From Glossina fuscipes (lineage: Eukaryota > Arthropoda > Insecta > Diptera > Glossinidae): 64,000 bases of DNA. Every line of letters begins with the position of its first letter. Within the stretch, counting starts at the first letter, position 1. Made by a program: the position numbers and the translations under genes. The notes below the pieces were generated by a model that was not told where the DNA came from, ran no database searches, and saw nothing but the letters and a program-made list of their open reading frames with translations. The DNA lies in assembly GCF_014805625.2 (NCBI RefSeq), contig NW_023998651.1, forward strand, positions 268,260-332,259. The letters are read 5' to 3'. Shown piece after piece: positions 8,401 to 62,296 of this stretch.

Positions 8401-8536
8401 ATTAGAATTTTAGCCTCTGGGGATACCTTTGAGCATGTTTTTGGAATTTCGGCTTGATGATTTACTACATATTCGGCTTTTCGGCATTGCGCTATAATGT
8501 CCTCCTTGTGAATTTTTGCTGTAACGCTGGTTGGGT

Positions 8537-9076: not shown

Positions 9077-9222
9077 CGTGAGGCTGCTATTACTTCTCTT
9101 TGATTGAGTAATAACGACCCTAGGGCTACTAAATTTCTGAGTCAGCCGTTGTCCCGCTGTGCTGATTCGTTTTAGTTTAACGCCTGTTCGTTGGATATAT
9201 CGCTGGCACCTTCACTGATAAT

Positions 9223-27806: not shown

Positions 27807-28139
27807 CCCGCCAAGGTAATATTTAAAAAAATCAAAACAACAGCAAATATTGAAAAAATTAAAACGACAACACATATGCCAAAATCTAATAAACTATATC
27901 CCCCAGAAATCACCAGTTCTCAACTCTCCTCAACAAATTACAAGCTGTAATGAATTTAATCTTTCATCCCTCAATCAACCTTCAATTTGAAATTATTCAC
28001 GTGTGCCCACTCGTTGAACTTCAAATTTACACAAACACCTAAGTACAGATGATTCTGCTGGTAAGAACAAATTATTCACGCGAAATTCTTATAGTGACAT
28101 TTTCGACGGAGACGCTGACATGTCAACTTAACCTACTTT

Positions 28140-44085: not shown

Positions 44086-44492
44086 ATTTTTTAAAATTTA
44101 TACTACACATGCGTTATAAGTAGAATCATATACATTTATTTACAATATGTACAAACTGTATATAAATGAAAAAATTCGTATATATAAAACAGATATATAT
44201 ATTCCAAGCAATTATAAACTACAGTCAACAATTCTTTATATATACTACCAAATTTATTGTAATTAGAATCCAGTACAAAATTGTTGACTTCAACGATTAT
44301 TAATGTTGGTCACAAAGTAAGGTATAGGTAAGCCTGGGAAAACAAAGAGCAGTCTTGATAGATGAGTGCAAGGAAGCGTCTTTCGTCCTTACTGATATTA
44401 ATTCCGCCCGCATAAGTGTCCACCCGTAGGCCTAAAAACACATCATACTGTAAGAAGCCAAACTTCCTTACCCGCTCCGAATGTTAAAAGAA

Positions 44493-45053
44493 TGGGTTCT
44501 ATATGTTCTTTCAGTGTTACTGTGCAATTTTTGCGAGATAAGACGGAAGATATAGATTTTGTCGGTAATAGTGGATTTTGGGATGCGCTACATTGAAAAA
44601 ACTTTTTGCTTGATGTGCCATTCTTTTTTTGTGGGATGAGTCACGCGTTTTTTTGAGTTGTGGGATGAGACAAGGTGTGATTCATCCCACCCAAAGGGCT
44701 GAATCACGCCTTTTTTGGTGTTTGCGCCCACCCGAAGACGTCCGAATGTGACCCGAATGACATTCGTGAGAGTTTTTTTTAACCCGGTGGTCTGAGATGT
44801 ATGTTCGTGTTGGGGTTTTCGAGAGTATTGTTGTGCCGTTGTTGCAAACCTATGTTGGAAATGAAGTATACCCTACCCTGGTATGTAGTTAATTGTGCTG
44901 AGATTTGTGCATTTCGATACAATTTTTGTACTGTGAGAATTTTTTATGATTGTTACTTGTGCTTTGATTTACTGACCTATCTTAACGCTATTAATGGATG
45001 ATCTATATTGTTTTTTAATCGCAAAAAAGACCTAGAACTTGTATAAATATCTT
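44493..45053 (+). repeat. Left terminal inverted repeat of the Polinton
   Basis: Complementary to 60,678-61,295. Clear anchors: gacggaagatatagattttg, tttgtgggatgagtcacgcg, ctaccctggtatgtagttaa and gacctagaacttgtataaat. Inner limit about 45,053; the outer limit fades at about 44,493. An ORF at 44,801-45,001 lies wholly in the repeat and is not a gene. Confidence 0.92.
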
Positions 45054-45059
45054 ACTATT

Positions 45060-45680
45060 GTAAGGTAAAAATAAACAAGAAAACCACAAAAAAATTGAAT
45101 TACTTAAAAAATTTTTTTTTTTTTGTTTTTTAAATAAGGTGATATTTTTAGGAACTTTGAGGTTTTTAGAGGAATGTATGAGGTAAAAAAATTGAATTAA
45201 TTAAAAACTATTCTATTTTTGAAATCTTTAGAAGTTTTCAGAAGTTGAGAACTTTTGATGTTTTCAGAAGAATATGTTATATATTAGGTATGGAAACCAC
45301 AAAAAATAAAATTAATTAAGAACTACTTTATTTTTAGGAACTTTCGACGTTTTTCTGAAGAAATGTGTGAGATATGGAAACCACAAAAAAATAATATTTT
45401 TTTTTTGTTTTTGGAATGTGATGAGAAAGTGTTATCTATAGAAAGTTTGGGTTTTTCCGAAGAAATGTGTAAGATATGGAAACCACAAAAAAAAAATATT
45501 TTTTTGGAATGTGATGAGAAAGTGTTATCTATAGAAAGTTTGGGTTTTTCCGAAGAAATGTGTAAGACATGGAAACCACAAAAAAAAAATATTTTTTTGG
45601 AATGTGATGAGAAAGTGTTATCTATAGAAAGTTTGGGTTTTTCTGAAGAAATGTGTTATAAATGTATAACAGATTTATAG
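45060..45680 (+). repeat. Subterminal tandem repeat with in-frame 31-aa units
   Basis: Three full units plus a partial at 45,363 (102 bp), 45,465 (93 bp), 45,558 (93 bp) and 45,651 (partial). All are multiples of three and stay open as MCxxWKPQKKNIF then LECDEKVLSIESLGFSEE repeated. More degenerate copies (gaaaccacaaaaaa ... ttttcagaag) extend left to about 45,060, linking to the TIR, which also holds aaccacaaa motifs. Whether this is a 105-aa protein or a coding-looking satellite is undecided; the frame may stay open simply because the units are near-identical. Confidence 0.8.
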
Positions 45681-45784
45681 AATACATAGATTTTAGGGTA
45701 TTAAAGGCGTCCAGCATTTAGAAGTATATAACATTCTAAAGTATATCATCAACAGTATTTGAATATATTTATCAAAAAAATAAT

Positions 45785-46123
45785 ATGGATATGGTGAAGG
45801 TATTAAATAATATTGGCGAGAGTCCAGCGTATGAGAAGAAAATTATGTCGCTGAAGGACTTTCCAAAGGACAATCGTTTAAGGATATTATCAGCCTAGAG
45901 GAAGCAAACAAGATATGGTAAAAAGATCATGTTACACCTTGAAGATCACGTCTTGTTCCTACCCGATAAATTCAACGCGATAGACGATGAGATGTTAAAG
46001 GATCTTTCATCAGGACAAATTGATGTTGGGAAAGAGATAATTAACAACGAAAAATATTATAATTTTAATTTTAAACGAGTAGAGCAACAAGTATATATAT
46101 ATATAATATGTTTAAGTGTTTAG
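45785..46123 (+). pseudogene. Small Polinton protein, possible ssDNA-binding/OB-fold type
   Basis: First ORF inside the left end. Reads MDMVKVLNNIGESPAYEKKI, SLKDFPKDNRLRILSA, an amber stop at 45,896-45,898, then RKQTRYGKKIMLHLEDHVLF with LPDKFNAIDDEMLKDL in the same frame, ending at 46,123 in a (ta)n-derived tail. The pattern of a short basic strand, K/R-T-K/R-Y-G, hydrophobic strand and FLPxxF resembles small conserved proteins that I recall from insect Maverick-like loci. A beta-barrel nucleic-acid-binding role is an inference. The ORF prefers to start at the ATG at 45,785, not the internal ATG at 45,929. It precedes polB directly, which would suit a replication accessory protein. Confidence 0.5.
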
Positions 46124-46343
46124 CAATTCAAAAAAAAAAAAACTAAAAATAAAAAAAAATTAACCGCTTGTTTTGTAATTTTTCTCTCATCTATTTTGTG
46201 GTTGAAGTTTTTTTTATCTCACTCCCTCTCCACCCTTCTTCTATAATTTAGGTAGTATAAATAAGTAGATTTTTGGATAATATACATCATTATTATGCTG
46301 AAATTTGAAAGCGTCAAGTGTTACAAATATTTAATAAAGAAAA

Positions 46344-48295
46344 ATGATAAATTTTACGTGCGATTTTCGCGGTAGAATATATAAGCAAAAGTGCTCCTTA
46401 TATCGTCACTTAAGGATGCATCATCAATTCAATTGTTTAACGTGTGAAGTGAAATTTTAATCTTTAAAGGATTTCATTAAACGTCAGCATTCGGCTAATG
46501 ATATTCGGAGAAAGGAAGAAAAAGATGTATATTGTGATAAATGTGAAATACTTGTAATGAAAGAAATGTGGCCTTATCATTTACGCACAAACTTCCACAA
46601 GGACAATTGGAATAAATGGGTGGATATGAGTGTAACGTGCGTTGAGTCCACATTTCACAATCGCATTGAAACGTACAAGTGGAAGAATAGAAACAAGGAC
46701 AAATAAATTCCGGAAGACTTTCTCACTACCATCGAGAACAATGTTAGGACATTACGAAATACTATGCAAAAGCATATAAATATTAAATTTCATTGCACAC
46801 TATGCTGTAAGTATAGCTTAATGAAGGAAGATTGTGAAGAGGAAATTTCACATCTTGAAATTAATATTAACAAATATCAACCTATAAAAGGATCGTCTTA
46901 TATACGTTTACCAAACAACACAAATAGAAATGGAATTATTGACAGGTTCGAGGTATAAGGGGTGGCATTGTTCAATGCTCCAAAAGATATTCTTTAGCTA
47001 ACAATAAATATGTAAGCGATTATGATCCTACTCAAGAATCAAATTATCTAATTCATTTAGATGTAAATAATTTGTACGGTTATGCTATGTCGCAATGTCT
47101 ACCCCATAAAAATTTTGAATGGATGACAAATTTGGAAAATTTTAATTTACATGAGGTGACAGATGACTCAGATATAGGGTATAGATTGGAAGTAGATTTA
47201 GAGTATCCATCTTCGTTACATGACTATCATAACGATCTACCGTTTTGTGCTGAAAATAAAAAAAATGCGCACATGAAATGTATCATATTAGTAACGGACT
47301 TAAACGATAAAACGCATTACGTTATACATTATCGCAAACTTCAACAATACATTCGACATGGTGTTGTTTTGAAGAAAATACACAAAATTCTTAAATTCAA
47401 TCAATCGGATTGGTTAAAAAAATACATTGATTTGAATAATTATCATAGAACGTTAGCTAAAAACTCTTTTGAGCAGAATTTCTTCAAATTATTGAACAAT
47501 GCTGTCTACGGCAAGACTATGGAAAATGTAGATAAAAGAAAAGTCATAAAAATAGTTTGCGAATGGGAGAATAGCGGTAAAAGGTTGGGTGCGAGAAGTC
47601 TTATAGCTAAACCGAATTTTCATAGTTCACTCAAAATTTCAGATGACATGATTATAATTCAAATGAATAAAGTACGAGTTGAGTACAATAAACCACTTTA
47701 CATTGATTTTACCGTGTTAGAATTATCCAAATAGAAAATGTATAATTTCCATTATGATTATATGAAGACTAAATATAAGGGAAATATTAATCTAAATTAT
47801 ATGGACACTGATTCGTTTATTTACGATATTAGAAGAAATTACTTATATGATGACATTCGAGATGATATCAACTATCATTTTGATACGTCCGTATATCCTA
47901 AACAAAATATATTCGATTTCCCCTTAATGAATAACACAGTGTTAGGAATGATGAAAGATAAATGCAATGAAAAATTAATGAAGGAATTCATTGGTTTACG
48001 CCCAAAAATGTATTCCTTTAAAATGGATGAAAATGGAGGAGAAAGTAAGAAAATTAAGGGTGTAAAACATTGTGTTACAGCTAAGCTAACCGTTGTTGAT
48101 TTTAGAAACTGTCTATTTGAAAAACAGTTGTATTATGATTCTATGTATGTTTTCGGATCAAAGATACACCAATTGTATACACAACATATTAATAAACTAG
48201 TTTTAAGCTACTTAGATGATAAAAGATTTGTAAGAGAGAATGGTATTAATACCTATGAATGGAAACATTATAAAATAAAGGGTAATGATAATTAA
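46344..48295 (+). pseudogene. polB: Protein-primed DNA polymerase B (pPolB), exonuclease region deleted
   Basis: Replicates the element from terminal proteins. N-terminal part (46,344-46,958): a C2H2-like finger whose second Cys is Arg (TCDFRGRIYKQKCSLYRHLR, then H), a YCDKCEILVMKEMW finger, and INKYQPIKGSSYIRLPNN. Stops at 46,458-46,460 and 46,704-46,706. At about 46,941-46,950 the text jumps in frame from NGIID to RGIRGGIVQCSKRYSLANNK, so the 3'-5' exonuclease region is missing. Then palm motif A (YLIHLDVNNLYGYAMSQ), motif B (LLNNAVYGKTMEN), an amber stop at 47,732-47,734 in frame, and motif C (NYMDTDSFIYDI). The natural C-terminus HYKIKGNDN ends at 48,295 and overlaps the protease 3' end by 50 bp. 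Palm residues are intact, but the gene is dead. Confidence 0.93.
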
Positions 48296-48743
48296 AAAAA
48301 CAAAACATATTTTTCTTATTTATTGATTTTATATATTTATATTTATTGAAATAGAATAATAAGCATAAAGGGCCACAATTAAAAGTGTTAAATTTTTGTT
48401 TTCGCTTATAATTGTATTGGATGGGTGATTTTAAGTAGTTAATCATTTCAATTGGTGGTTGTAGATTTCGAAAACTATCAAAATATTCTTTATAATTGTA
48501 TTTTTTATAGTAGGCTACCCAATGTGTTCCAGAACCCTTTGAATTATCTAGATTAACAATACCACATTCTTGTGCTAATAGTTTTAGGTAAAGAATTACG
48601 CATAAAAACACGTCTGAAATGTTTAAGTTGTTTACCGTACTTAATTAAATCGATATCCGTTAACGGTCGATTGGGTAGGTTGTTTAAAAGTTTTTTGGGG
48701 CTGGTCTGTAATAAAGTGCATATCCCTTTCTATAGGGTTTATG
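48246..48743 (-). pseudogene. Adenovirus-type cysteine protease (adenain-like)
   Basis: Cleaves capsid precursors in virus-like assembly. The 121-aa frame at 48,611-48,246 carries ECGIVNLDNSKGSGTHWVAY with the catalytic His in THW, the acidic residue in EYFDSFRNLQPP, and the catalytic Cys block FNTFNCGPLCLLFYF. Upstream the N-terminal half is in another frame (LLNNLPNRPLTDIDLIKYGK, then FRRVFMRNSLPK, about 48,710-48,575), with the frameshift near 48,570. It converges with polB and sits behind the hydrophobic peptide gene. All catalytic residues are visible, so decay is by frameshift only. Confidence 0.88.
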
Positions 48744-48968
48744 TTATAAACCTCTCCCCATAGTAATTGATTCCATATATCTGTTATGACGAGTAGACTC
48801 CGCTAATTGTTCTCTTCCATTTTTTATATCATTTACTGCTTTAACTATAGCTGATCCACCTGTAGCCAAACTTCCAAGTGCTTTTAAGACCGGAACTAAA
48901 AGAAGGAGTCCACCAAGTTTTGGCATTGGGATAACTCTCGGTGTATCAGCATTATCCTTGTTACTCAC
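48744..48968 (-). CDS. Small hydrophobic virion-type peptide (pVI/pX-like, tentative)
   Basis: 74 aa, open. A hydrophobic, Gly/Ala-rich stretch MPKLGGLLLLVPVLKALGSL then ATGGSAIVKAVNDI, followed by NGREQLAESTRHNRYMESIT and GRGL. Similar peptides (hydrophobic helix, AIVKAVND, HNxxMExI, GxGL) sit beside the protease in many Polinton/adintovirus genomes in my recollection, and are compared to adenovirus membrane-lytic or core peptides. The stop at 48,744-48,746 may be premature, because the same frame continues with HKPYRKGYALYYRPAPKN. It starts 3 bp after the stop of the PLA2-basic gene, so the three minus-strand genes are packed like an operon or overlapping transcript. Confidence 0.55.
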   Translation of the reverse strand: MSNKDNADTPRVIPMPKLGGLLLLVPVLKALGSLATGGSAIVKAVNDIKNGREQLAESTRHNRYMESITMGRGL

Positions 48969-48971
48969 CCT

Positions 48972-49506
48972 TCATTTTGAATGTATTGCATTCTGAGTTA
49001 TTGTTCCAGCATCCGTGATATTATTCGGTTTTGCTTTTTTCAAGATATTTAAAGTCTTTTTAACAGCGGTTAAAACTAGCTTTTTTCCGCCGCATGTTCC
49101 TCTTTTTCTTCCTCTTCTATTTTTTCCCGCCTTTTTTCTCTTAATTTTTCTTACTTTTTTCGTCTTTTTCTTTCTGCTAGACTTACTAGCACTCATACCG
49201 AGACCAAATTTCACTTTTGCCTTCATTGCATTCGTTGCGAACCAAGCGTTAATATGTTATCAACTTGATGTCTCTTATTAATGTCTTCTGATTGTGAATA
49301 TGCAATATCATGCTCTCTACAAGCTGCATCCAACGGGTTTATTCCTTCTTCTCCTCGCGCTAGACGTGTTGCTAGTTTCGTTCCTGGACCACAAAATTTA
49401 TAGCCCGGTAAATGTATTTCAATAGGTAAATTATTAGGTTATTTACGAAACCTCGTCCAATTTTAGACTGATTGTATATGTCTCTTTTATTATAGTTTAT
49501 AACCAT
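48972..49506 (-). pseudogene. Phospholipase A2 domain fused to a basic, core-protein-like tail
   Basis: From the ATG at 49,506: YNKRDIYNQSKIGRGFVNN, then a frameshift, then the PLA2 core LPGYKFCGPGTKLATRLARG and INPLDAACREHDIAYSQSED. The calcium loop (KFCGPG) and the catalytic His-Asp (REHD) are both present, as in parvovirus VP1-unique PLA2. After a second break near 49,240 the C-terminal part (49,226-48,972) is very basic: MKAKVKFGLGMSASKSSRKK, then KKVRKIKRKKAGKNRRGRKR, ending NAIHSK. I read these as one gene because AWFATNAMKAK flows across the start of the second ORF in its own frame. Would serve in membrane breach during entry and DNA binding; that role is inferred. It diverges from the ATPase across a 105-bp gap. 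Confidence 0.75.
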
Positions 49507-49611
49507 TTTTTTATCGTTCTATATACAATAGGATCAGCATCAAAAATCAAAATGATATATATGTGTATACATAAATGGTATTTGTATAGAACAGCAAATT
49601 AGTTTATCATT
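49507..49611. promoter_or_regulatory. Divergent promoter region with inverted motif
   Basis: 105 bp between divergent ATGs (49,506 - and 49,612 +). It holds gttctatatacaa at 49,516-49,528 and the inverted ttgtatagaac at 49,582-49,592, one near each gene, with TA-rich sequence between. Suggests a shared bidirectional promoter; inferred only. Confidence 0.4.
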
Positions 49612-50237
49612 ATGCGTTTAGTTAAACAATCGAAATAAATCGTTGTTAGGAATGCTGACGATGTTTGTTTACAGAAAGGAAAGACTAAAATTGTACATAG
49701 TGCTCTATTACCGAAATCGATACGAGCCTTATTTATGGGACCATCAAATTGTGGCAAGACAAATGTTATGATTAGCCTAATAGAAAGTCCTAATGGTCTC
49801 AGTTTTGAAAACATCTACACATATTCAAAATCTTTATATCAATCAAAATATCGTTATCTGCAGACACTGATTGATCCGGTAAAGGGTATAAACTTATTTA
49901 CATTCTCAGAAAATGAAAAAGTTATAAGCCTATCTAAGGCAAAACCACATTCTATAATGATATTCGATGATGTGATATGCGATAAACAAAATACTATAAG
50001 GAATTGCTTTTGCATGGGTGGACAAAACACATTGATTGCTTTTATTTATGTCAAACATATACGAGAATTCCTAAACATTTAATATGTGAGAATGCAAATA
50101 TGATAATAATATTTAAACAGTGCTGGAAAGATAAATATGGTTTTGTTGTTGTGAGCAAGGATGATCCAATTGATAAGGAACGATATCGGAAAGGTTTCGA
50201 TAATTTCATACAGTTCAGTAAGTCAGATGTGATATAA
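49612..50237 (+). pseudogene. Packaging ATPase (FtsK/HerA-type)
   Basis: Pumps the genome into capsids. In frame from ATG 49,612 with a stop at 49,636-49,638 (codon 9): then VHSALLPKSIRALFMGPSNC runs into Walker A (MGPSNCGKTNVM). Walker B is in HSIMIFDDVICDKQNT. A frameshift near 50,030 moves to the frame of DCFYLCQTYTRIPKHLICEN, the conserved sensor/arginine region with MIIIFKQ following, and the C-terminus KGFDNFIQFSKSDVI ends at 50,237. Both Walker motifs are intact. Length about 208 aa, normal for this family. Start at 49,612 is chosen because the preceding intergenic region is shared with the divergent gene. Confidence 0.9.
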
Positions 50238-50356
50238 AGCAGACCATTATCAGATATAAAGCTGGTCATTATCGGATATAGAGCAGATCACTATCAGATA
50301 TAAAGCTGATCATTATCGGATACAGAGCAGATCACTACCGGATATAGAGCAGATTA
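50231..50356 (+). repeat. 22-bp tandem repeat, 5.7 copies
   Basis: Units gatataaagctggtcattatcg and near variants at 50,231, 50,253, 50,275, 50,297, 50,319 and 50,341 (partial). Begins inside the ATPase stop region and ends just before the next ATG. Two alternating subtypes: aaagctg/gtcatt and agagcagatcact. Confidence 0.9.
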
Positions 50357-50362
50357 CAAAAA

Positions 50363-51983
50363 ATGAGTAACAAATTGTTAAAAGATATTATGAAGACACG
50401 AGAAGTGTTGAAAGCGAAGCTGAGAAATATTAAATTAAATCAAATAGAGAAGGTTAACTTATTGGAAGACACATTTCAGCCTATAACTAAACCTTTGAAA
50501 CGGATAATTAAAAAACTTGATAATAAAAATTCTACATCGCTGATATCATCATGTACGAATGGTTCAATAGAAAATCACAACAATAACAATAGTGGTAATG
50601 AAGATGATGATGACGGCGACGATGATCATGTAAATAATTTTGATTATAATAATGTTGGGGTTGAGACAGATAATGACGTTGCGATGGGTAATAATGGTGT
50701 TGAGATGCCTACATATAATTCATTATCAAATTACAGGTAGAAATCAAACGCAGGAAAAAGAAGAAAAACTAAAACAAATTTATTGAAGTGTGGAAAGAGT
50801 AGAACGAGTGCAAAAACTAAAAAGAATTTATTAAAGTATGGAAAGAGTGGAAGAGCTGGTAAGAGAATATTTCGTAACACCCCTCTAACCGCGTCAACAA
50901 ATGTGGTTCATATTAATAGAAGATCCTCCATATGTTGACTACGTGGGTAATCAGGAAGAAGAACGAGAAGCTGATTTTCCTAATGCAGAAGAAGAAAAAG
51001 AACATATGAATACTGATGAAACGTCTTTGGAATCAAAACACTATTAAATAACAACAACAACGACATCAACAGCAATAAGAAAAGGTTCAGAATTAAAAAG
51101 TGTTTAAAGCGGAACATTGATAAAAAAGGACTTAAAATAGAGAAGGGTTTAAAGACTTTGAAACATTTAAAAAGAGAGAAGAAAAAAATTTACTTCAAAG
51201 AAGGAAAGCTATAACGACAACAACACCAGTTACAATTGAACAAAAAAAGATTTTAAAACGAAAGAATTCTACGCCACTAGATGGTTTTGATGATAATAAT
51301 GCGAAACGGTTGAACACATCACACATATCTTTCAATCAAAAACGAAAGAGTAAATCACAATTGAATACTGATAAAAAAGGAAATAAAAATATGAATAATA
51401 GCAACGATGCTAACGTTAATTCAAATAAATCCTCACTCTATAGTGTTATACGATCACTTATTAATAATGAAAGGTTAGATAAAATTTATGGTTTTAATGT
51501 AGATGTAAGGGGAAATTGGCGATATGGAAATAATAAATTAAAATTTAATAGAGATAACACTATCAATATAGGAAATATTAAATGGGCTATGACGCCAGGT
51601 ATGTTTTAGCTCATGTTTCACTCAAAGTCTCAACATTATACAAAAAGAGATTTGATAAAATATAAAGATATTCTAATATATACAAATGTATACAAACCTC
51701 ATTATCAACCAGGAGCGCAAATTAAAGGTACAAAGCATTTAAATATCAACGTGTAATAGGACCATTATTTAATAAGAAATCAAATCTTCTAACGAAAGGT
51801 AATGGACTATCATTAAAATCATTAGACACTCGTAAACATATCTATACCTATTGGGACGATCCTAACGAGCTAGCTGATAGATTACGCTTACTTCTTTCTT
51901 CCGAAAGTGCTGGGCACAATAATCACAAAAACGAAATAATTTCAATTGTTGAGGAATTGCGAGAGGCCAACATAATTAAATGA
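50363..51983 (+). pseudogene. Conserved Polinton protein of unknown function
   Basis: N-terminal 125 aa (50,363-50,740): coiled-coil-like LLKDIMKTREVLKAKLRNIK, then an Asn/Asp-rich tract with EDDDDGDDDH. A basic middle (about 50,740-51,310) is broken. 51,310-51,609 reads SLYSVIRSLINNERLDKIYG, NVDVRGNWRYGNNKLKFN and KWAMTPGMF, then an in-frame stop at 51,607-51,609; it continues LMFHSKSQHYTKRDLIKYKD and, after a frameshift near 51,735, YQRVIGPLFNKKSNLL, YTYWDDPNELADRLRLLLSS and IISIVEELREANIIK. I recall the YWDDPNELxDRLRLL motif from many arthropod uncharacterised proteins linked to Mavericks. The stop overlaps the ORF start at 51,980. Probably virion-associated; no function assigned. Confidence 0.6.
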
Positions 51984-52003
51984 TAATACTAATAATAATA
52001 ATA

Positions 52004-52828
52004 ATGAGTTCTATAAATAAATTTGGAGAAGGTTTAATTAATCATCATTATCAGTATAACAATTCAAAGTTAAAGACAAATTTTGTAAACAGGTTTGGCA
52101 TTAGTATAGATAGTAATAGCATAGATTTTCATAAGAAAAGACTTTGTAATTTAATTGCACCTACAGACCCCAAAGATGCTGTAACAAAAGCATATCTGCT
52201 AAGAAAAAATGATGTGTTAACAGATAGTGTAAACAATCTAACAACTACATATACTTCAAAAATGAATCGCATTGAGGACGATATGAGACAATTTCAAAAC
52301 TCACATAATTCACAAATGAATAGTATGAAAAAACAAATAGATGAATTATATACGACAATCAAAAATGATATTAATAGCGAAGCTAAACAAGTTGAGATAA
52401 CTCTTAAGAATCAACTAATTAATGCAAATAAAATCTATATGAATAAGATCGAGGAACGATTCAATAAAATTGAAGAATATATTTTCAAATGGATTGGAGT
52501 GGAACAACTGCAAGAAAAATATGATAAGCAATTGAATAGTATGAGAGGTGATTTAACAAAATTACAAACTACCCTAAGAAGCAACGTTGAAGAAGATGTT
52601 AAATTAATTGAACAGACTGTTAAAGCGTATTTGAATAATGAGAATAAGCAATTTATTACTAAGACTGAAGAATGATTTCAAATAATCGAGCACTATCTTT
52701 TCAAATCGATTGGTTTAAAGGAGCGAGAACAACAAGGCAAGGATATAAAAATAGGAAGATCAACTAAGAGAAGTAATATATATATATATAACAACAACAA
52801 GACTAGCAAACAAACACAATTGGATTAA
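52004..52828 (+). pseudogene. Long coiled-coil, fibre-like protein
   Basis: The frame is open from before 52,004, but the ATG giving MSSINKFGEG is the more natural start. Near residues 45-65: DFHKKRLCNLIAPTDPKDAV with TKAYL, a motif shape (...DAVTKxYL) known from phage tail-fibre and spike proteins, then a long heptad-rich coil (MNRIEDDMRQFQNSHNSQMN ... FNKIEEYIFKWIGVEQLQEK). A stop at 52,673-52,675 appears premature: the same frame continues with FQIIEHYLFKSIGLKEREQQ, a repeat of the FNKIEEYIFKWIG block, to 52,828. Likely a trimeric attachment or scaffold protein; inference. Confidence 0.6.
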
Positions 52829-52844
52829 AGCGCATAGAGTTTGC

Positions 52845-53780
52845 ATGATGGATCTAAACAAAGATAAAAGAGATATAGTTAATGAGCTACATAAACAAGC
52901 ACGTAAACATTTCAAAAGAAGACGAGTTGTCATGAAAGGAATTGATAATTTATGGCAAGCCGATTTGATTGAAATGATAAGCTATGCAGTACAAAATAAC
53001 GGCTATCGTTATCTTTTAACAGTAATACATACGTTTTCGAAGAAGGCTCGGACTATGGCAGTGAAAAACAAAACTGCTCAAAACGTAACGAACGCTATGA
53101 AGCAAATTTTCGAGAAAAGTCATCGTAAACCGAAAAATTTACAAACTGACGATGGTAAAGAGTTTTTCAATAGTCAATTTCATCAATTGATGCAAAACTA
53201 TCATATTAATCACTATTCAACATATAGCGTTCTGAAGGCGTCCATAATTGAACGATTCAATAGAACATTAAAAGGAATGATGTGGAAAGAGTTTAGTTTT
53301 TAAGGAACCTATAAATGGATTCATATATATAAGGACCTTATCGATAAATACAATAACACGTTTCATAGAACCATAAAAATGACGCCAAATCAAGTGAATT
53401 CTTAAAATGAGATATCTATGCTGGATACCGTGCACAACAATTTAAAAATATTCAAAAGACCAAAGTTCAAAATAAACGATTATGTACGAATGAGTATATA
53501 AAAACATCAATTTGAGAAGGGCTACACACCCAACTGGACTACGGAGATCTTTAGAGTGAAAACTATAAAAAATACCAATCCAAATACATACCTGTTAGAA
53601 GACTACCAGGGGCGTGAAGTTAAAGGTGGATTTTACGAATATGAACTAATGAAAACTGAATTTCCCCAAACGTATTTAGTTGAAAAAGTTATAAGGAGAA
53701 GGGGAAATATGGTCTATGTTAAATGGTTAGGATTTTCATCGGAACACAGCTCTTGGATTAATATGGACAATATATCTTAA
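52845..53780 (+). pseudogene. Polinton integrase with chromodomain
   Basis: Retroviral-type DDE integrase that would insert the element. DIVNELHKQARKHFKRRR precedes the core; first Asp in NLWQADLIEM, second in LQTDDGKEFFNSQ, third Glu in SIIERFNRTLKGMM. So DDE is intact. Stops at 53,301-53,303, 53,403-53,405 and 53,499-53,501 are all in the same reading frame, so the gene is one frame with three nonsense codons. The C-terminal chromodomain reads YLVEKVIRRRGNMVYVKWLG then SSEHSSWI, with the aromatic cage residues Y, W and W present; these bind methylated histone tails in chromo-integrases. Typical length about 310 aa. Confidence 0.93.
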
Positions 53781-53848
53781 TAATAATAATAATAATAAAA
53801 GCTATCAGAGACATTCATAGATAATTTATTCACTCATCAGACGTTAAA

Positions 53849-54544
53849 ATGTCAATAACACTAACCTTAAACGGGAACTCCTCGTTACTTATTGCAAACT
53901 ATTTTCCCCCAATTGAACTTCATGAAAATTATGTTTGCGGACTAATAAGTTTCGATACCTATCATTCAATTCCAAATGTCGATCGGGAAAACAATTTATT
54001 TCATATTGGCAACCATCAAATCACAATTCCTATTGGTTCATATGAGTTTTCTGATATAGTCGATTTAATTACAAGTAAATATCATGATATGAATGATAAA
54101 GGGGGCATACTCAATATTCAAGCAAATTATAATACGTTGCAAACACACATAAAGAGTAAAATAGATCCAATTTATTTCGATAAGAAGCGCTCGATTGGAT
54201 CATTATTGGGATTTAGTAAGAGAAAATTACAGCAGGGTATAGAACACTATTCAGATAAAACAATCGATATAACGATTATTAATACCATAATGATTGAATG
54301 TAATATTGTAAGTGGATCTTATATAAACAATATATCAGCGCATACTCTTCATCAGTTCTCACTTACTGGTAGTCCAGGTTATAAAATTGTAGAGATACCG
54401 GCTAATGTAATATATTTACCTATAAATACAAGAACGATAAATTTTATTGTTTTGAAAGTTGTCGATCAATCTGGCAATTTAATAAATTTTCGTGGAGAAA
54501 AAATTTCAATAAGATTGCATTTAAAACCATCATCACACACATAA
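53849..54544 (+). CDS. Minor capsid protein (penton-like, single jelly roll)
   Basis: 231 aa, complete and unbroken. Starts MSITLTLNGNSSLLIANYFP, contains ENYVCGLISFDTYHSIPNVD, ITIPIGSYEFSDIVDLI, SKIDPIYFDKKRSIGSLLGF, DITIINTIMIECNIVSGSYI and ends with VDQSGNLINFRGEKISIRLH. Position directly after the integrase and before the major capsid, size, and the (hydrophobic strand, IxxECNIVxGSYxN, LHxF, PxxYLP) pattern fit the minor capsid protein of Polintons. Would form capsid vertices. It is the best preserved core gene, surprising beside its broken neighbours. Recognised by context and pattern. Confidence 0.8.
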   Translation: MSITLTLNGNSSLLIANYFPPIELHENYVCGLISFDTYHSIPNVDRENNLFHIGNHQITIPIGSYEFSDIVDLITSKYHDMNDKGGILNIQANYNTLQTHIKSKIDPIYFDKKRSIGSLLGFSKRKLQQGIEHYSDKTIDITIINTIMIECNIVSGSYINNISAHTLHQFSLTGSPGYKIVEIPANVIYLPINTRTINFIVLKVVDQSGNLINFRGEKISIRLHLKPSSHT

Positions 54545-54546
54545 GG

Positions 54547-54801
54547 ATGATAATATTCAACAAAAAAGACGTATTCAATGATTCAACGTTCACTTCAACG
54601 CCATCATCAATAGAATACACAACGAAGAAATTATCATCGTCATCATCATCATCATAATCGACGTCGCCGCCGAGCAGAGATAATAAGAGTAATAAAAAGA
54701 TAAAAAAATACAAACGAATAAACCCAAGCAGCAAAACTACTAATACCCTAAGTAGAATTAATCAGGAATTTTTAAATAGTCTGGGATTTCAATTAAAATA
54801 G
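54547..54801 (+). pseudogene. Small conserved protein between capsid genes
   Basis: 85 codons, starting 2 bp after the minor capsid stop and ending 13 bp before the major capsid ATG. MIIFNKKDVFNDSTFTSTPS then a poly-Ser run from a (tca)n microsatellite, in which one codon is taa (54,655-54,657). The basic tail KKIKKYKRINPSSKTTN ends with LSRINQEFLNSLGFQLK, a compact C-terminus that I recall in Polinton genomes at this position. Function unknown, possibly capsid-internal. Confidence 0.5.
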
Positions 54802-54814
54802 ACAGGAAAAAAAA

Positions 54815-55918
54815 ATGAGTAATATAATTGATATATTACAAAAACCACAATTTGATAATTCGATTATATAAAAAGAATATCACAGTTACACATCGTATTT
54901 ACAATCATTTAAAAATAATGATGAAATTCGTATATCAATTCAAATTCAAGATTTGTATGTCTTACCAAGCGAAAGCTTTCCATACATTGAAGGAACTGCA
55001 TCAGAGGAAGATGGCACAATTTCTAATAGTATAAAACTGTTAAACAATTGTATGGCGCATCTATTTGATGAAATTCGATATGAGCTTAACGGTATAGAAA
55101 TTGATCATACACGTCATTTGGGCATTACAACGGAAATAAAAAATTTCACATCATTGAATAAACGTGAGAGTGAGAGCCTACTGAATGCAGGATGGCCGCC
55201 ATTTAATAACGATGAACTCACTATTGTGAGCGGTTATTTCAACTTTTGTATACCACTGAAGATGCTACTTGGATTTGCGGAAGATTTCAATAAAATCATA
55301 GTTAATTCTAAACATGAACTGATTTTACTACGATCTAAGATGCCACATGTTCAACTCGCTGACGCTTACATTTTGGAGGTGTTTAAAAAAATCAATTCTC
55401 GCCAACCCTTAAATATATGCTTCACAACTTGGGATATGTATTATTATTATACTTCCACAGAGTGCCGCCGTTTTATGGAACGTTAAATTAGCCAGTGAAA
55501 ACGAACGACCGCGGTTTCTACTTAAAGCATTGCGAAACGCCGAAAACAAATTTACTCATTGCAATTTAACGAATGTAAAAGTACATCTAAATTCTGATTC
55601 ATATCCATAGGATGATTTGAATCTTAGATTCAGTCGAAATAAAGTCGCTCTACTCTATGACATGTATCCAAGATTTCAACAAAGTAATTATTATTACACG
55701 ATCCATATCCGCTATTGAAACGTAATGAGTTTCTCACGCTTGCACCCATAGTTGTTCTGGACGTAACACATCAAAATGAATCGGTTAAAACCGGACCAAT
55801 CGATGTCCGCATTGGATTGAAATCTTCAAGTAACACACCAGCTAATACAGCGGCATACTGTTTAATTATACACGATAAAATATTTGACTATGTACCCCTT
55901 ACAGATGAAGTAAGTTAA
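54815..55918 (+). pseudogene. Major capsid protein (hexon-like, double-jelly-roll family)
   Basis: ATG 54,815. A stop at 54,869-54,871, then the main frame: NNDEIRISIQIQDLYVLPSE, SFPYIEGTASEEDG, LLNNCMAHLFDEIRYELNGI with EIDHTRHLGI, GYFNFCIPLKMLLGFAEDFN, then INSRQPLNICFTTWDMYYYY. A frameshift near 55,470 moves to LWNVKLASENERPRFLLKAL and THCNLTNVKVHLNSDSYP, with a stop at 55,608-55,610, then LYDMYPRFQQSN; a further shift near 55,690 gives FLTLAPIVVLDVTHQNES and TGPIDVRIGLKS, with NTPANTAAYCLIIHDKIFDY. The IxIQxQDLYxLPSESFxYIEG and LIHDxI blocks are typical of insect Polinton capsid proteins in my recollection. Total about 368 codons, near the length expected for this type. Clearly not functional. 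Confidence 0.82.
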
Positions 55919-55979
55919 ATATTGTAAATTGTAATAAAATAGCAATAAAACATATATATATATATATACGAATTTTTTT

Positions 55980-56774
55980 ATGAAACAAGAAAACGTTCTT
56001 CTTCTCTCCATATATATTAATATATATCATTTACATGTTGATCATTATTTAAACACAACAGCGCGCGTTTGTAAACAAACAAGACAGGGGGATATTATAA
56101 TTAAAATAAATATATATATTTTGCTTCTTCTATTGAAAATAGTGATTGGTAATTCTATACCGTTCACTTTTACTACTCCTCAAGCAGATTCGAATTCAAA
56201 AACTGTAGAGTTCAATTTAACCCTACCCAACGGTGATGTTCTGAGAATTAATATATCATTTGTTATGATGAAAGTAAGCTAAGCACTGGAAACTAAAGAC
56301 AATTATTGTCTATTAAAAAATCAACGTGATGCTACAATGTAAGCAACTAGTACAACTATTTCACCACCTGTTGAAACAACAACAACGCAACAAGAAAAAG
56401 AACAAAAAAAAACAACAGAACAAACATTATTAAAATATTTTTCAGTGGATGACGATAGCGTCATTTCGTAGATCGTTAATCAATTCCGAAATGGATATAG
56501 GTGGTATACTGGAAGCTGAGAATCCATTTTACAGATATTTCAATCTCAAATATGAAAATGTTGATGTACCTATTCGTTGCACTTATAAAAGTATCTATGA
56601 GCAAAGAGAACTAAAATAAATTGCTTCGAATATCGTGAATTTGAAAAAGAGAGAATATTAAGTGATGGTGAAATTGAGAAGTTTCGCACACCAGACTTAT
56701 CGCGGAGGCTACAGGACGTTCGAATAGTTGATCTAAAAGATTATACACAAACGTATAAAATGAATATTACGTAA
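55980..56774 (+). pseudogene. Thr-rich putative secreted protein, paralogue A
   Basis: N-terminal hydrophobic segment INIYILLLLLKIVIGNSIPF suggests a signal peptide. Then NSKTVEFNLTLPNGDVLRIN, a Cys-containing region, in-frame stops, and a Thr-rich linker (ATSTTISPPVETTTTQQ). In a shifted frame follows the conserved domain MDIGGILEAENPFYRYFNLK then YENVDVPIRCTYKS, then another shift and RLQDVRIVDLKDYTQTYKMN at the end. The domain and C-terminus match gene B next door, so the two arose by duplication. No family recognised. Virion surface or host-interaction role is a guess. Confidence 0.5.
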
Positions 56775-56823
56775 GGATGAAATAGTTAGTTTCCAAGAAA
56801 ACTTTAAAAGAGAATAAACCAAT

Positions 56824-57526
56824 ATGAAAATTAACGGATCAACGGTATACGCGTTTTTAATTTTTATTCATATTCATAATGCACAACTTCATTACCCTCT
56901 TTCCCATTCTAAACGACTTTACGATAACGGAATTGCGGTGATACAAGTAAATATTTAAATTTTCGAATAAGACGATACAACACGTGCAATGATACATTTA
57001 TCACTTCAGTTGCTAACCAAATTATCGGAAGATAAAATTTCAACAACAACAACAATATCACCAGGAATATCAACCTTACAAACAGATAATAATAGACCAG
57101 CAAGACATGTTGCTTATAAACTATTTACAATAAATGATGTAATTGAAGCTATTAAAAGCGTTTTAATAGAAAAAAACATTGGAGGTATTATTGAAAGCGC
57201 ATTAGTATTCCTTGGTCATTTCAATTTAAAATATGAAAATTGTGAAATTAGAGTCAAATGTAGCTATTATAGTAATTACGTATGATGGTGGTGGTGGTGG
57301 TGATGGTGGTGGTGGTGGTGATGGTGATGGTGGAAATCAAAGAGAAAATTCAAACATTAATGAAAGAGAAAATCAATATGAAGCTAGTCCACTCATCGGT
57401 CGACCCGAAAATGATGTATATGTTAGAACTATTGATATCAACGATTATTTACAAACATTTCATATGAGTATACAGGAAGACGCATCACGTCACAGGAAAA
57501 AATATAATGATAAAAAAAATATATAG
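56824..57526 (+). pseudogene. Thr-rich putative secreted protein, paralogue B
   Basis: MKINGSTVYAFLIFIHIHNA reads like a signal peptide. Two in-frame stops follow within 60 bp, then MIHLSLQLLTKLSEDKISTT with a Thr run, FTINDVIEAIKSVLIEKNI, and the conserved block GGIIESALVFLGHFNLKYEN with CEIRVKCSYY. A frameshift at 57,240-57,290 leads into a Gly/Asp run encoded by a (ggt)n microsatellite and the C-terminus ENDVYVRTIDINDYLQTFHM. Shares FNLKYEN, R/K-C-x-Y and VRxxDxxDYxQTxxM with paralogue A. Overlaps the next ORF start by 20 bp. Confidence 0.5.
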
Positions 57527-57827
57527 ATTTTTAAGGACATTCTCAAATATTGTTTCCGATGAAGATAGAAAGAAACTCATCAGTATTCAAGCACATCTGG
57601 AAGATTTAAACAATCACAGGATAATTCAAAACAAATATGGTGAACATTACGAGGACTGCGTTTGGTCAGATGAGAATGCTATATGTGGAGCAGATACATG
57701 TAACTGTACATACTATAAGAGAAAAAAAATTGAAGTAGAAAAAGAAACAAATAAAATTATGGAATTCTATTATAACATAATATATAATCTAATTGAATGT
57801 AAACATTATACTTTTTTAGAAAAATAA
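57507..57827 (+). CDS. Small Cys-containing protein, unknown
   Basis: 106 aa, unbroken. IYRFLRTFSNIVSDEDRKKL, then IQAHLEDLNNHRIIQNKYGE and a Cys cluster HYEDCVWSDENAICGADTCN then CTYYKRK, ending in a helix EVEKETNKIMEFYYNIIYNL. The four clustered Cys could form a disulfide-bonded or zinc-binding knot. Not recognised. It overlaps paralogue B by 20 bp and ends 4 bp before a mariner target site. Being open in a decayed element it could be real but is short enough for chance. Confidence 0.4.
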   Translation: MIKKIYRFLRTFSNIVSDEDRKKLISIQAHLEDLNNHRIIQNKYGEHYEDCVWSDENAICGADTCNCTYYKRKKIEVEKETNKIMEFYYNIIYNLIECKHYTFLEK

Positions 57828-57833
57828 TTAATA

Positions 57834-58312
57834 TTAGTTTGGGGAAAAAGAAATCCATTATTTTTATATAAACTTCAGGACTTTATTTAACATGCTTCGG
57901 ATTGTCCGATTTGGATCAAATATGCACCGTTTTGTTATATGATTTGTTGCCATTTTAAAGGTAACTTCAAAATGCCTCTATCATAGAAGTCCTGGTCTCT
58001 ATTTGCAAAAAACTCGAGTAGTCGATTTTCACAATCCTCCCTAGATTCCAATTTTTTATCATTAAAGAAATTTTGCAATGCAAGAAAACTGTAAAATGTA
58101 CCGAATTTTCTCTTTGTTCACTTCCATTTTTAACACGCTTTAACTCACAACTGAATGCACTAAACAAAAAACATCAAAAGAATTTTTTTTACTGCGAAAT
58201 GTACAGTATGTAAATGTACAGTATCGGAAATTGTTTGATCGATACTTTATGAGAAATCTATCAGTGCAGCCATCTACCGAAAAAATAATGGATTTCTTCT
58301 TCCCCAAACTAA
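57834..58312 (-). mobile_element. Internally deleted mariner (479 bp) nested in the Polinton
   Basis: TIRs ttagtttggggaaaaagaaa (57,834, continuing tccattattttt) and its inverse at 58,280-58,312, with one mismatch in 32, flanked by TA target duplications at 57,832-57,833 and 58,313-58,314. On the minus strand a transposase start MEVNKEKIRYILQF (ATG at 58,127) jumps to the C-terminal end FANRDQDFYDRGILKLPLKW then YLIQIGQSEAC, ending at 57,887. The catalytic core is gone. ORFs on this stretch are frameshifted shadows. Non-autonomous; would need a transposase in trans. Confidence 0.95.
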
Positions 58313-58429
58313 TATAAGAAAGAAAATCTCTATTTTTTCTCTCATCATCATCATCATCATTAAACAAAAAAAGGGGGAGAACTATAAAAACGGTGCGTTT
58401 AGCTATGTAGAGAACATTACCTTGTAACA

Positions 58430-58948
58430 ATGTATCAAGATAAAATAATTATTATCGATGTGCAAGGTTTCTATAGTGCAAACAAATTTATTCCAAAAGA
58501 AGTTTGCATCTCCAGCTACGACTCACAAATTAAAAATTTCATAATTCAACCTCCATTCAAATATTTAAAGTTAATGGCGAAGAATAGGACTACAAACAAC
58601 TGGTTGTATAATCATATTCATGACTTACGATGGGATGATGGTGATTCAACGTTAAATGTTAAAGAATATCTAAAACCGTCTATCAAAAACACACAAAATC
58701 CCACTGTATATGTTAAAGGACTTGAAAAGTTGAAATGGGTGAAGACGCTAATTGGAGAGGAAATTTGCATACCTAATTTAGATGACTTTAACTGTTCGAA
58801 TATAGATACTTTATATAAAACAGATACAAATACAAATTTATGTAATTATCATTGTTGTAAATATAGATGCGCTCTGAAATATGTTATATTATTACGAAAT
58901 TATGTTAAGTTCAATTTAAAAAATAAAGAGAATATTGAGAATGTTTGA
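58430..58948 (+). CDS. Unknown cargo protein with RNase H/DEDD-like start
   Basis: 172 aa, fully open. Begins MYQDKIIIIDVQGFYSANKF, a beta strand ending D-x-Q as in the first exonuclease (DxE) motif of DEDD proteins, then VCISSYDSQIKNFIIQPPFK, NWLYNHIHDLRWDDGDS, TVYVKGLEKLKWVKTLIGEE (second strand plus helix) and a Cys/His cluster LCNYHCCKYRCALKYVIL. I recall unnamed insect proteins with the same IDVQGF...KEVCI, WLYNHIHDLxWDDG and VYVKGLEKxKW layout, often near mobile elements. Exonuclease activity is not claimed: the acidic set is incomplete by eye. A TATA-like tataaaaa lies at 58,383. Intact beside broken core genes. Confidence 0.6.
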   Translation: MYQDKIIIIDVQGFYSANKFIPKEVCISSYDSQIKNFIIQPPFKYLKLMAKNRTTNNWLYNHIHDLRWDDGDSTLNVKEYLKPSIKNTQNPTVYVKGLEKLKWVKTLIGEEICIPNLDDFNCSNIDTLYKTDTNTNLCNYHCCKYRCALKYVILLRNYVKFNLKNKENIENV

Positions 58949-59063
58949 AAAGAAAAAACTGGTTTTTTAAATAAAAAAAAAAGTAGATAAAGAGTATAAT
59001 AACACTAAGATAATAGCATAGTCATCAGTTGTTTTTATAAATTCATCTGTTTATTATCCCTCG

Positions 59064-59429
59064 TAATAAAAAAAGGTGGTTTCATCAAGAGTTTTCGAAA
59101 ATCTATTGAAAGCGTACGATTGTTGTATTGATAAGGGTCACAGGACTTTCCTCCTAAAAATGATTGATGAATTAAGGATATATAACAATTTATCCTGTTC
59201 GCCACTTATATCATCATCAATATACGGTATACATAGACATGATTCATGAATAAATTGCATAAAAACTAAAAATACCTGCGCCTGCAAACTATTTTACGAG
59301 CGATATAAATTAGCGCAGAAACTTTTTAATTTGTATAACCGCATTTTTTCAAACCACAAAAATTCAGCAGCTTATCTTCACAAAACTTGTAAAGAAAATG
59401 GTATAAATACCGTGCTCAAAGAAATCTAG
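59064..59429 (+). pseudogene. Unrecognised Cys-rich cargo relic
   Basis: Two open stretches in different frames, no ATG: VVSSRVFENLLKAYDCCIDK with GHRTFLLKMIDELR (59,064-59,252), then CIKTKNTCACKLFYERYKLA with QKLFNLYNRIFSNHKN (59,260-59,429). The composition (helical, Lys/Leu-rich, clustered Cys) reads like protein rather than random AT-rich DNA. Not recognised. Confidence 0.35.
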
Positions 59430-59491
59430 CATTACAAGAAGTTTTGAAAGCTACACTAATTTAAATAAAAACAATTAATATAAGAACAAAA

Positions 59492-59852
59492 ATGAATTTC
59501 AATACCTCAAATTTTACCCTATCAATTGTATTCTTCGAAACTCGCAACAGTTATGAAATAAGCAATGGCGAAAGCGAGTTGCTGCAGCAAGTTTTTTTAC
59601 TACACTGGGACACAAACATCGTCCATCAAATGCAGAAATGCTTAGACGAGCAGGTTGCTGAATACTTGGAGACTGATCTCATGGCTAACTGGGATTTACT
59701 CCCAGATTTTAAATTCATTTTTAAGCTCTAGGGAGTTAAGTATTAATATGTATTCTATGCAATATGAAATTTATTTAAAAATAAAGAATAGAAAGCGCCT
59801 CTATGGATTCGTAGAGGTGTGGAGAAATAAAATCCCTATTTATAAAATATAG
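59492..59852 (+). pseudogene. Unrecognised cargo ORF with frameshift
   Basis: 79-aa open frame MNFNTSNFTLSIVFFETRNS, then LLQQVFLLHWDTNIVHQMQK and CLDEQVAEYLETDLMANWDL, ending at 59,731. A second frame overlapping it continues SSRELSINMYSMQYEIYLKI and RLYGFVEVWRNKIPIYK to 59,852, plausibly the true C-terminus after a frameshift near 59,710. Unknown. 59,853-60,677 holds repeats only. Confidence 0.35.
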
Positions 59853-60030
59853 GAAAAATTAACAACAAAACAAATGTGTTTTAATTTTTTCCTTTTTCTA
59901 TCAAGTTTCAGGACTTTATTGAATATTGGAATAATAATATATAATTTTTATTCAGAAAATTAACAACAAAAAAATGTCTTTTAATTTTTTCTTTTTTTTA
60001 TCACATTTCAGGCTTTTTTAAAAATATAAT
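59851..60030 (+). repeat. About 100-bp tandem duplication near right end
   Basis: Unit starts aggaaaaattaacaacaaaac ... ttttaattttttc ... atca-gtttcagg at 59,851 and recurs at about 59,952, with diverged tails (gactttattgaatattgg, then similar text again near 60,090). Confidence 0.65.
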
Positions 60031-60120
60031 ACAACTAGAAAGAATGTTTGAATAGTTTCTTTTTTTGCGTTAATACGGAAAGTAAAGTTTATTGAATTGG
60101 AATAATAAACTGATTTATAA

Positions 60121-60424
60121 GCGGCATTTGTTAAGATAGGTCAGTAAATCAATTAGAAAACAGAAGCACAAGTAAAAACCACAAAAAATTCTAAAAATTC
60201 ATTTTATATATTCATATTATTAATACTTGATTGGTTTTGGAGTACATATGCTGTGAGTACTAAGTTTAGAACTTGGTTGGTTTTCAATTCATACAATTAG
60301 CTTCCTATACTGTAGGGTATATATTAAGTTTAGAACTTCGTTTGCATTGTGTTAGTTAAATTGATCTATAAGCGGCATCTATTAAGATGCCTCAACCAAA
60401 AAGGGCGGTATCTGTTAAGATGCG
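60121..60424 (+). repeat. Subterminal motif gcggcat-tnttaagat, three copies
   Basis: gcggcatttgttaagatagg (60,121), gcggcatctattaagatgcc (60,372), gcggtatctgttaagatgcg (60,405). The first is followed by tcagtaaatc and agcacaagtaaaaaccac, matching sequence inside the right TIR. Confidence 0.75.
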
Positions 60425-60677
60425 TAAACGAAAAGGGGATTTTACTACTCCCGTTATGGCTACCGGAAACGGCACTACGCTGAGCGTTTAGAAATGAGAC
60501 GTAGCTTCTCATTACGAAATATTTAAAAGAAAATCGATTCATCCTACGGATAATCTTGGAAAAATAAAAAAGTATATGACCAAAGGAAACTTTATTAAAT
60601 GTTATATATTGAAATAAACGTAAAATAAATGAGAATTATATTTTACAAAGAAAAAAATGATATGATTAATAACATCC

Positions 60678-61295
60678 AAGAATATTTTTATACAAGTTCT
60701 AGGTCCTTTTTGCGGTTAAAAAACAATATAGATCATCCATTAATAGTGTTAAGATAGGTCCGTAAATCAAAGCACAAGTAAAAACCACAAAGAATTCTCA
60801 CAGTACAAAAATTGTATCGAAATGCACAAGTAAAAACCGCAAAAAATTCTCATAGTACAAAAATTGTCTCGAAATGCACAAAACTCAGCACAATTAACTA
60901 CATACCAGGGTAGGGTATGCTTTGTTTCCAACATACGTTTGCAACAACAACACAACAACACCCTCGAAAACCCTAACACGAACATCCATCTCGGACCCCC
61001 GGGTTCAAAAAAACTCTCACGAATGCCATTTGGGTCACATTCGGACGTCTGCGGGTGGGCGCAAACACCAAAAAAGGCGTGATTCAGCCATTCGGGTGGA
61101 ATGCACCACACTCTTTTTCACCCCAAAACCCAAAAAAACGCGTGACTCATCCCACAAAAAAAGAATGGCACATCAAACAAAAATTTTTTTCAATGTAGCG
61201 CATCCTAAAAGTCACTATTACCGACAAAATCTATACCTTCCGTCTCTTTCTCGCAAAAATTTGCGCAGTGACGTTGAAGGAATATATAATACCTA
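60678..61295 (-). repeat. Right terminal inverted repeat of the Polinton
   Basis: Inverse of 44,493-45,053. Longer than the left copy because of an internal 52-bp duplication (60,772-60,875). The ORFs drawn here (60,767-61,329) are repeat translation, not genes. Confidence 0.92.
60772..60875 (+). repeat. 52-bp tandem duplication inside the right TIR
   Basis: Copies 60,772-60,823 and 60,824-60,875, gcacaagtaaaaacc-caaa-aattctca, with a few differences. The left TIR has one copy. Confidence 0.9.
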
Positions 61296-62296
61296 CTTAA
61301 AAAAATTGTTATTTATTATATGTAAGTAAAAATTAACTAACTTATTTATAACTCTAGTTACGCTCATTAAACCCTAAATTCTTATACTAAAAAGTCTAGT
61401 CCTTTTATTTTGATGCAAAATTGTAATTCAACGCTGCATGATTTCGTTTATAGCTTTATATATAAGTACGAATATAGCTTTCAGTAAGTTACTCTCCCAA
61501 GTAGACATTAGCATGTAAGTGGTAGAGTAAGTAAATACACCTCGTGGTGAAAGCTCTAGATATCAATGCGTTGGTGTGGCAACCAAGAGCTATAAAAGCA
61601 GCGTGCAAACAACGATCTTTCTTTTAGTTGTGCAGCAGCAGTTGAACGAACAGCTAAGTCAAACTAGTAGTAGTTTGTCGTCCCACGCGGATCATATTTC
61701 CTCAGTAAAGAAGAAAACAAGGCTGCCCAATAAATACGTGTTGGTTTTTTCTTTCACCGCGAAGTAACGCAACAAATAAGGCCATCTTGTACTCTTCTTG
61801 AATTCCGCAAATATATAGTTGATCTAACACAAAAATACGAAGTTTCCGTTAATTTAACGAATAAATTTCTTGGAAAGGACCGCTGGACAGCCCTGAACGA
61901 AACTCCAGCTGTAAACAACCCCTGTTACAACACGATTTGTGGTCTCGAATGTGCTCTATTTGCGGTTGTTGTCATGTTTGTATATTAATAGCTAGCACAT
62001 TGAATCGTTCTCCTTATGTAAAGATTAACGGCTTCTATACATGTTCGATCATACGATTTGATACCTAAGATAGCCTTAACAATAAGATATACATGAGGGT
62101 GTCATTATAACACATATCTAAGTAAGTGTTGAGATTGTAACATAGGGGTAGGCAAAATATCTATGCAACAGGGCAATGATGGTGATCGCGACTACGGACG
62201 AGTGTGTCACAATACGCTAATTCTTTCAGTTTTCTTACAGCAGCCAGAGGTAAGGAATATATTTATTTGATATTACCGACAGGGATTTTTTTTGAC
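61296..62296 (+). other. Flank of the Polinton; possible promoter or LTR
   Basis: A TATA-like tataaaag at 61,591-61,598 sits upstream of agttgtgcagcagcagttg and an aataaatac block at about 61,730; another related block (cttggaaagga) recurs at about 62,831. This may be a decayed LTR pair, but no defined ends or coding homology were found. No gene supported. Confidence 0.3.

Follow-up and report, generated by a model that had tools for sequence, protein, structure and literature searches.

The 64,000-nucleotide stretch of Glossina fuscipes DNA analysed here (the window; contig NW_023998651.1, positions 268,260 to 332,259) contains a decayed Polinton whose right-end block of cargo genes includes one intact open reading frame (ORF) of 172 amino acids (aa) that is predicted to encode a Maelstrom-like pseudo-exonuclease (58430-58948 of the window, + strand; E24, C138, H141 and C147). 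Our reading is that its product is likely zinc-bound, catalytically dead and RNA-binding, and that it likely blunts silencing by PIWI-interacting RNAs (piRNAs); we put the probability of this reading, the decayed element included, at roughly 0.7. Animals use piRNAs to silence mobile elements, and it is an open question how giant virus-like elements persist in spite of it. A small, unnamed gene family of insects and spiders whose predicted fold and zinc residues resemble those of a piRNA factor offers a directly testable candidate.

Predicted fold and residues of the 172-aa protein

The closest protein relative of the ORF (queried as the 58403 ORF), at 98% identity across 95% of the query, was an uncharacterised Glossina palpalis gambiensis protein. 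Further relatives came from G. palpalis gambiensis and G. fuscipes, and outside Glossina the family has members in a beetle, in ants and in a spider. It has no convincing Pfam entry; single weak Pfam matches within it (zf-MYST at 7e-4 in one member, others weaker) were regarded as chance, and sequence searches of the PDB with the ORF and its profile returned nothing relevant. Structure prediction on each ORF had been proposed as a check in an earlier sequence-only reading of this DNA, and for the 172-aa protein it gave a DnaQ-type (DnaQ/RNase H-type) exonuclease fold with a predicted local distance difference test (pLDDT) score of 86. This model was built from a 35-row alignment, a 5-row alignment having given a pLDDT of 57.

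Residues were counted over 35 aligned rows, 11 of 45 relatives having been excluded as truncated or ill-aligned. The first catalytic acid is Asp in 34 of the 35. At the second position 31 rows have Gln and 3 have Glu. The presumed column of the last acid, set four residues after C147 on the model of R306 after C302 in Bombyx Maelstrom, holds no Asp at all (0/35). From these columns, two or more of the four metal-holding catalytic acids appear to have been replaced. A further set of residues is strongly conserved, namely Glu24 (35/35), Cys138 (34/35), His141 (30/35) and Cys147 (34/35). The C-x-x-H...C set is present in 32 of 35 family members, compared with 8.8% of shuffled members and none of four E. 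coli DEDDh enzymes, and the spacing from Asp to Glu, measured in 34 members, is 14-15 in 31 of them; in Bombyx Maelstrom it is 15. In order and spacing the E-C-H-C tetrad fits Maelstrom, and the modelled fold and these residues suggest that the protein is likely a catalytically dead exonuclease domain with zinc bound at E-C-H-C.

According to the accessible part of PMC4408791, animal Maelstrom has lost all of the DEDD acids except the first and has as zinc ligands a Glu on strand 2, a C-x-x-H pair and a Cys further on. For the Bombyx protein that paper reports binding to single-stranded RNA and no nuclease activity; an amoebal relative with both residue sets cuts RNA. The 172-aa protein resembles the Maelstrom MAEL domain (PF13017) in its predicted DnaQ-type fold, in the apparent loss of catalytic acids with retention of the first Asp, and in having a Glu on strand 2 together with CxxH...C. 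The segment IDVNYYCKWDNKYLIGE of Spodoptera Maelstrom corresponds to IDVQGFYSANKFIPKE in the ORF. EHHCHC has been described as the Maelstrom signature (PMC2628886); its E, C, H and C were found in the family, and only one of its two middle histidines has a candidate (H64, 34/35). Unlike Maelstrom, the 172-aa protein stands alone, with no HMG box, and the two showed no match at the sequence level.

Several observations weigh against the proposed reading. The Pfam MAEL model was listed for none of 36 family members at E ≤ 10, in a search where the HMMER filters drop weak matches. Profile-profile comparison with Maelstrom profiles of two and five sequences was not significant (probabilities of 1.1% and 0.9%; P = 0.047 and 0.063, the latter over an alignment of only 27 columns), with 0.4% (P = 0.15) for the four E. 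coli DEDDh enzymes; the Maelstrom profile was thin because the protein search for Maelstrom relatives yielded only three proteins. Structural Z scores did not separate Maelstrom from ordinary exonucleases. Within the family, three spider-type members (P0039, P0041 and P0042) lack the His and show Glu at the second acid position, the invariant E99 is a candidate third acid that might still act as one, and the excluded relatives include the Glossina copies P0002, P0005 and P0007, which are without parts of the motif. Arenaviral exonucleases also have an E-C-H-C site (accessible part of PMC7968707), so such a site need not mean Maelstrom descent. As sequence methods fail to establish that descent, we describe the protein as Maelstrom-like in its fold and its residues and do not claim membership of Maelstrom proper.

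An alternative is an ordinary virus-borne relative of DEDD-type exonucleases with an unusual active site, likely processing the DNA or RNA of the element, in which E-C-H-C would bind zinc for structural reasons and have no connection with Maelstrom. The last-acid column devoid of Asp, the rarity of Glu at the second position and the lack of the CxxH...C set in the E. coli enzymes speak against it, and we consider this explanation unlikely, if worth keeping in view.

Possible action of the cargo protein

As a dead, zinc-bound domain, the 172-aa protein would bind RNA without cutting it, as animal Maelstrom does, and would probably interfere with piRNA silencing, which would likely help such an element to persist. 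Maelstrom guards the germ cells of animals. Speculatively, the cargo protein could compete with it for RNA or for partners in the germline, the tissue in which such elements are silenced by piRNAs.

A protein of this kind could instead suppress somatic innate sensing or RNA interference rather than piRNAs. Its structural matches include ORFs of the Apophua and Glypta ichnoviruses, and ichnovirus genes are delivered to suppress hosts. Arenaviral E-C-H-C exonuclease domains have also been tied to suppressed innate signalling (accessible part of PMC7968707). However, no function was found for those ichnovirus ORFs, and germline silencing is presumably what an integrated element most needs to evade. 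We again regard immune suppression as improbable. Neutral hitchhikers or captured host genes without a role for the element would suit a decayed copy in which other genes are broken, but the ORF family holds its invariant residues across insects and spiders down to 26% identity with the ORF of the window and its neighbour gene recurs in other Glossina proteins, which makes this the least credible explanation by some distance.

A broader proposal can be made only tentatively, and we think it is probably too strong: that the Polintons and adintoviruses of arthropods encode a mimic of Maelstrom, an inactive exonuclease with bound zinc that jams germline piRNA silencing and that they share with ichnoviruses, which would be, as far as searched, the first counter-silencing gene described from a Polinton. 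The accessible parts of the open-access literature yielded no report of a Maelstrom-like gene in a Polinton, and no open-access work joining ichnovirus and Maelstrom was found.

Extent and termini of the Polinton

The unit that holds the ORF comprises 16,807 bases (16.8 kb; 44490-61296) and is an ordinary decayed Polinton/adintovirus-type (Maverick) provirus. It has the long terminal inverted repeats of a Polinton and TTAAAA on both sides, a 6-bp target-site duplication being a Polinton feature. The left repeat (44490-45053, +) and the right repeat (60681-61296, -) were aligned with gaps over 44495-45053 and 60681-61293 (559 and 613 bp), giving 613 columns, of which 505 are identical and 54 gapped, and 90% identity over ungapped columns. 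The gaps stem mostly from a 52-bp tandem duplication within the right repeat (60772-60881). Two ungapped blocks were also found, pairing 44541-44965 with 60821-61245 (425 nt, 90%) and 44905-45053 with 60681-60829 (149 nt, 93%). The TTAAAA copies (44484-44489 and 61297-61302) directly abut the outer ends; when a shift of ±3 was allowed at either side, a 6-bp match arose by chance in 356 of 20,000 randomly drawn pairs of positions (1.8%). A subterminal tandem repeat lies at 45408-45656 (93-bp unit, 2.7 copies, 98% matches).

The sequence-only reading had described a nearly complete, decaying Polinton with both inverted repeats at 44493-61295, ends that differ by 3 and 1 bases from ours, and the repeats, TTAAAA, hallmark genes and broken frames all agree with that description. 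The ORF content of the unit is far above chance: read from stop to stop, the + strand has eight ORFs 150 aa or longer and the - strand has none, while 200 dinucleotide shuffles together gave 12 such ORFs, the longest of 183 aa against 263 aa observed.

The cargo block

The right third had been described as filled with genes that could not be assigned. It does hold such genes, but is now partly resolved, from the capsid gene up to the right repeat, into a tandem-duplicated gene, several small genes and the Maelstrom-like ORF. The duplicated gene, here gene X, survives as pieces of copy A (56343-56771, +) and copy B (56971-57526, +), which align with each other at the protein level in three collinear stretches, the best of them at 49% over 37 aa with E = 2e-11; a TGG trinucleotide array within copy B (57283-57333) yields a glycine run. 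It is followed by a 119-aa ORF with a cysteine-rich middle and no assignment (57468-57827, +). Between two cargo genes lies a pair of 35-nt inverted repeats (57831-58315; 97%, 415 nt apart), which may mark a hairpin or a small transposon nested in the element; no target duplication was seen there. Beyond the 172-aa ORF, the next cargo gene (59070-59426, +) consists of two same-frame pieces split by a stop, and its chemokine-like match (E = 0.03, under the cut-off) was regarded as chance. An 88-aa ORF without assignment (59465-59731, +) completes the block.

Residues of the 59070 gene also stand behind the 172-aa ORF in three of nine related proteins (P0001, P0004 and P0008). Since P0001, at 98% (4 differences in 172 residues), may be the same locus in another assembly, two of these three are clearly independent. 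From this recurrence the cargo block likely belongs to the Polinton element family. The sequence-only reading had also raised the possibility that the genes come from separate unrelated insertions, which is unlikely because they lie within one repeat pair and the cargo order recurs in other Glossina proteins.

Core genes and their decay

The earlier claim that all hallmark genes are present holds by Pfam for the integrase and the capsid, whereas the polymerase, protease and ATPase are recognised by motif, order or weak matches only. The rve integrase core (52755-53303, +; PF00665, 5.1e-15) is followed by a chromodomain ORF (53502-53780, +; PF00385, 9.2e-6, 25.9 bits, barely above the cut-off of 25.1) that is likely the C-terminal part of the integrase, so that the Polinton-typical combination is present as two ORFs with stops between them. 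The double-jelly-roll major capsid protein (54872-55915, +) has its first 204 aa open, and this piece gave the match to PF21738 (7.3e-46); the likely remainder was traced by eye in several pieces. A transposon-only element without virion genes is ruled out by the capsid match.

Polymerase pieces (46461-48295, +) carry the motifs D..NLYG, NNAVYGK and YMDTDS in order, interrupted by in-frame stops and a frame change, and we take them, from these motifs and their order, for a putative protein-primed family-B DNA polymerase. Likewise, an adenain/Ulp1-like cysteine protease piece (48246-48644, -; GTHWVA ... NCGP) and packaging ATPase pieces in two frames (49639-50237, +; P-loop GPSNCGKTN, IMIFDDV) are presumed from motifs and position. 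Library searches did not confirm these three names: the polymerase pieces had no match in the profile libraries scanned, the protease piece matched cysteine protease S273R only weakly (E = 0.43), the ATPase pieces gave a weak ATPase_2 match under the cut-off (0.0027), and PHROGs and NCBIfam returned no polymerase, protease or ATPase match among the pieces searched. The decay noted in the sequence-only reading is plain in the polymerase, ATPase, integrase and capsid genes, all hit by stops or frame changes.

Beside the protease lies a very basic 94-aa ORF (48972-49256, -), which by composition we presume to be like an adenovirus core protein and which had no Pfam match. Three ORF pieces have no assignment (50348-51983, +), and a tandem array of a 22-bp unit (50231-50354, 5.6 copies) stands immediately ahead of the 50348 ORF. 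A 231-aa coiled-coil ORF (51980-52675, +) with a DAVTKAYL motif gave weak matches to phage tail-fibre profiles (2.8e-4) and is possibly a fibre-like protein of the Polinton. The 239-aa open ORF at 53825-54544 (+), a putative minor capsid/penton protein, is so named from resemblance, and had no Pfam match. The coiled-coil, penton-like and 58430 cargo ORFs are among the longest still open. Scans of IMG/VR found no relative of the capsid, cargo, polymerase or integrase pieces, nor of the cargo family alignment.

If this element followed general Polinton biology, its integrase would have inserted the linear genome at a 6-bp staggered site, its protein-primed polymerase would have copied the genome from its ends or repeats, and packing into a capsid would have fallen to the protease, the ATPase and the jelly-roll proteins.

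Surrounding DNA

Elsewhere in the window, pieces of a Gypsy-type long terminal repeat (LTR) retrotransposon lie at 6136-9978 (-), with matches to integrase PF17921 (1.5e-19) and rve (1.2e-9); two ORFs look protease-like and gag-like by eye. Remains of a non-LTR retrotransposon lie at 26956-29745 (+), with a reverse transcriptase (PF00078, 1.5e-23) and a weakly matched zinc-knuckle-like ORF (0.11); a second reverse-transcriptase piece was seen by eye on the opposite strand (37270-37755, -).

Comparison with viral relatives and known systems

In Glossina morsitans, 305 'bracovirus' homologues have been reported, and the wasp references of that study include one on the capture of a Maverick by a bracovirus (accessible part of PMC7331153). 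In a tick study, one bracovirus-like endogenous viral element groups with an adintovirus-type MELD virus, although the authors finally label such elements retroviral genes (accessible part of PMC10675110). Some of the tsetse 'bracovirus' genes may be Polinton genes.

The arenaviral nucleoprotein exonuclease domain differs from the 172-aa protein in being active, with its catalytic acids kept (accessible part of PMC4408791). Structural matches of the 172-aa protein were found to the ichnovirus proteins AsIV-cont00151-ORF1 (Apophua) and GfV-D6-ORF1 (Glypta) and to A0A7D4ZHK6 of Drosophila-associated adintovirus 2, all labelled merely as ORFs or uncharacterised in the structure library; with these it has a predicted fold in common over 122-165 aligned columns at 22-27% identity. 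At the level of the whole element, the Polinton resembles the Adintoviridae (Mayetiola alpha-adintovirus and Drosophila-associated adintoviruses 1-3) in its chromodomain integrase, double-jelly-roll capsid and insect association, and is of similar size. Adintovirus contigs measure 13.3-14.6 kb (accessible part of PMC8363768), and the adintovirus definition includes an OTU-like domain at the polymerase N terminus (accessible part of PMC11071296). Compared with these contigs by description only, the tsetse copy is decayed and about 2 kb longer, and it has one cargo gene in duplicate and several others without assignment.

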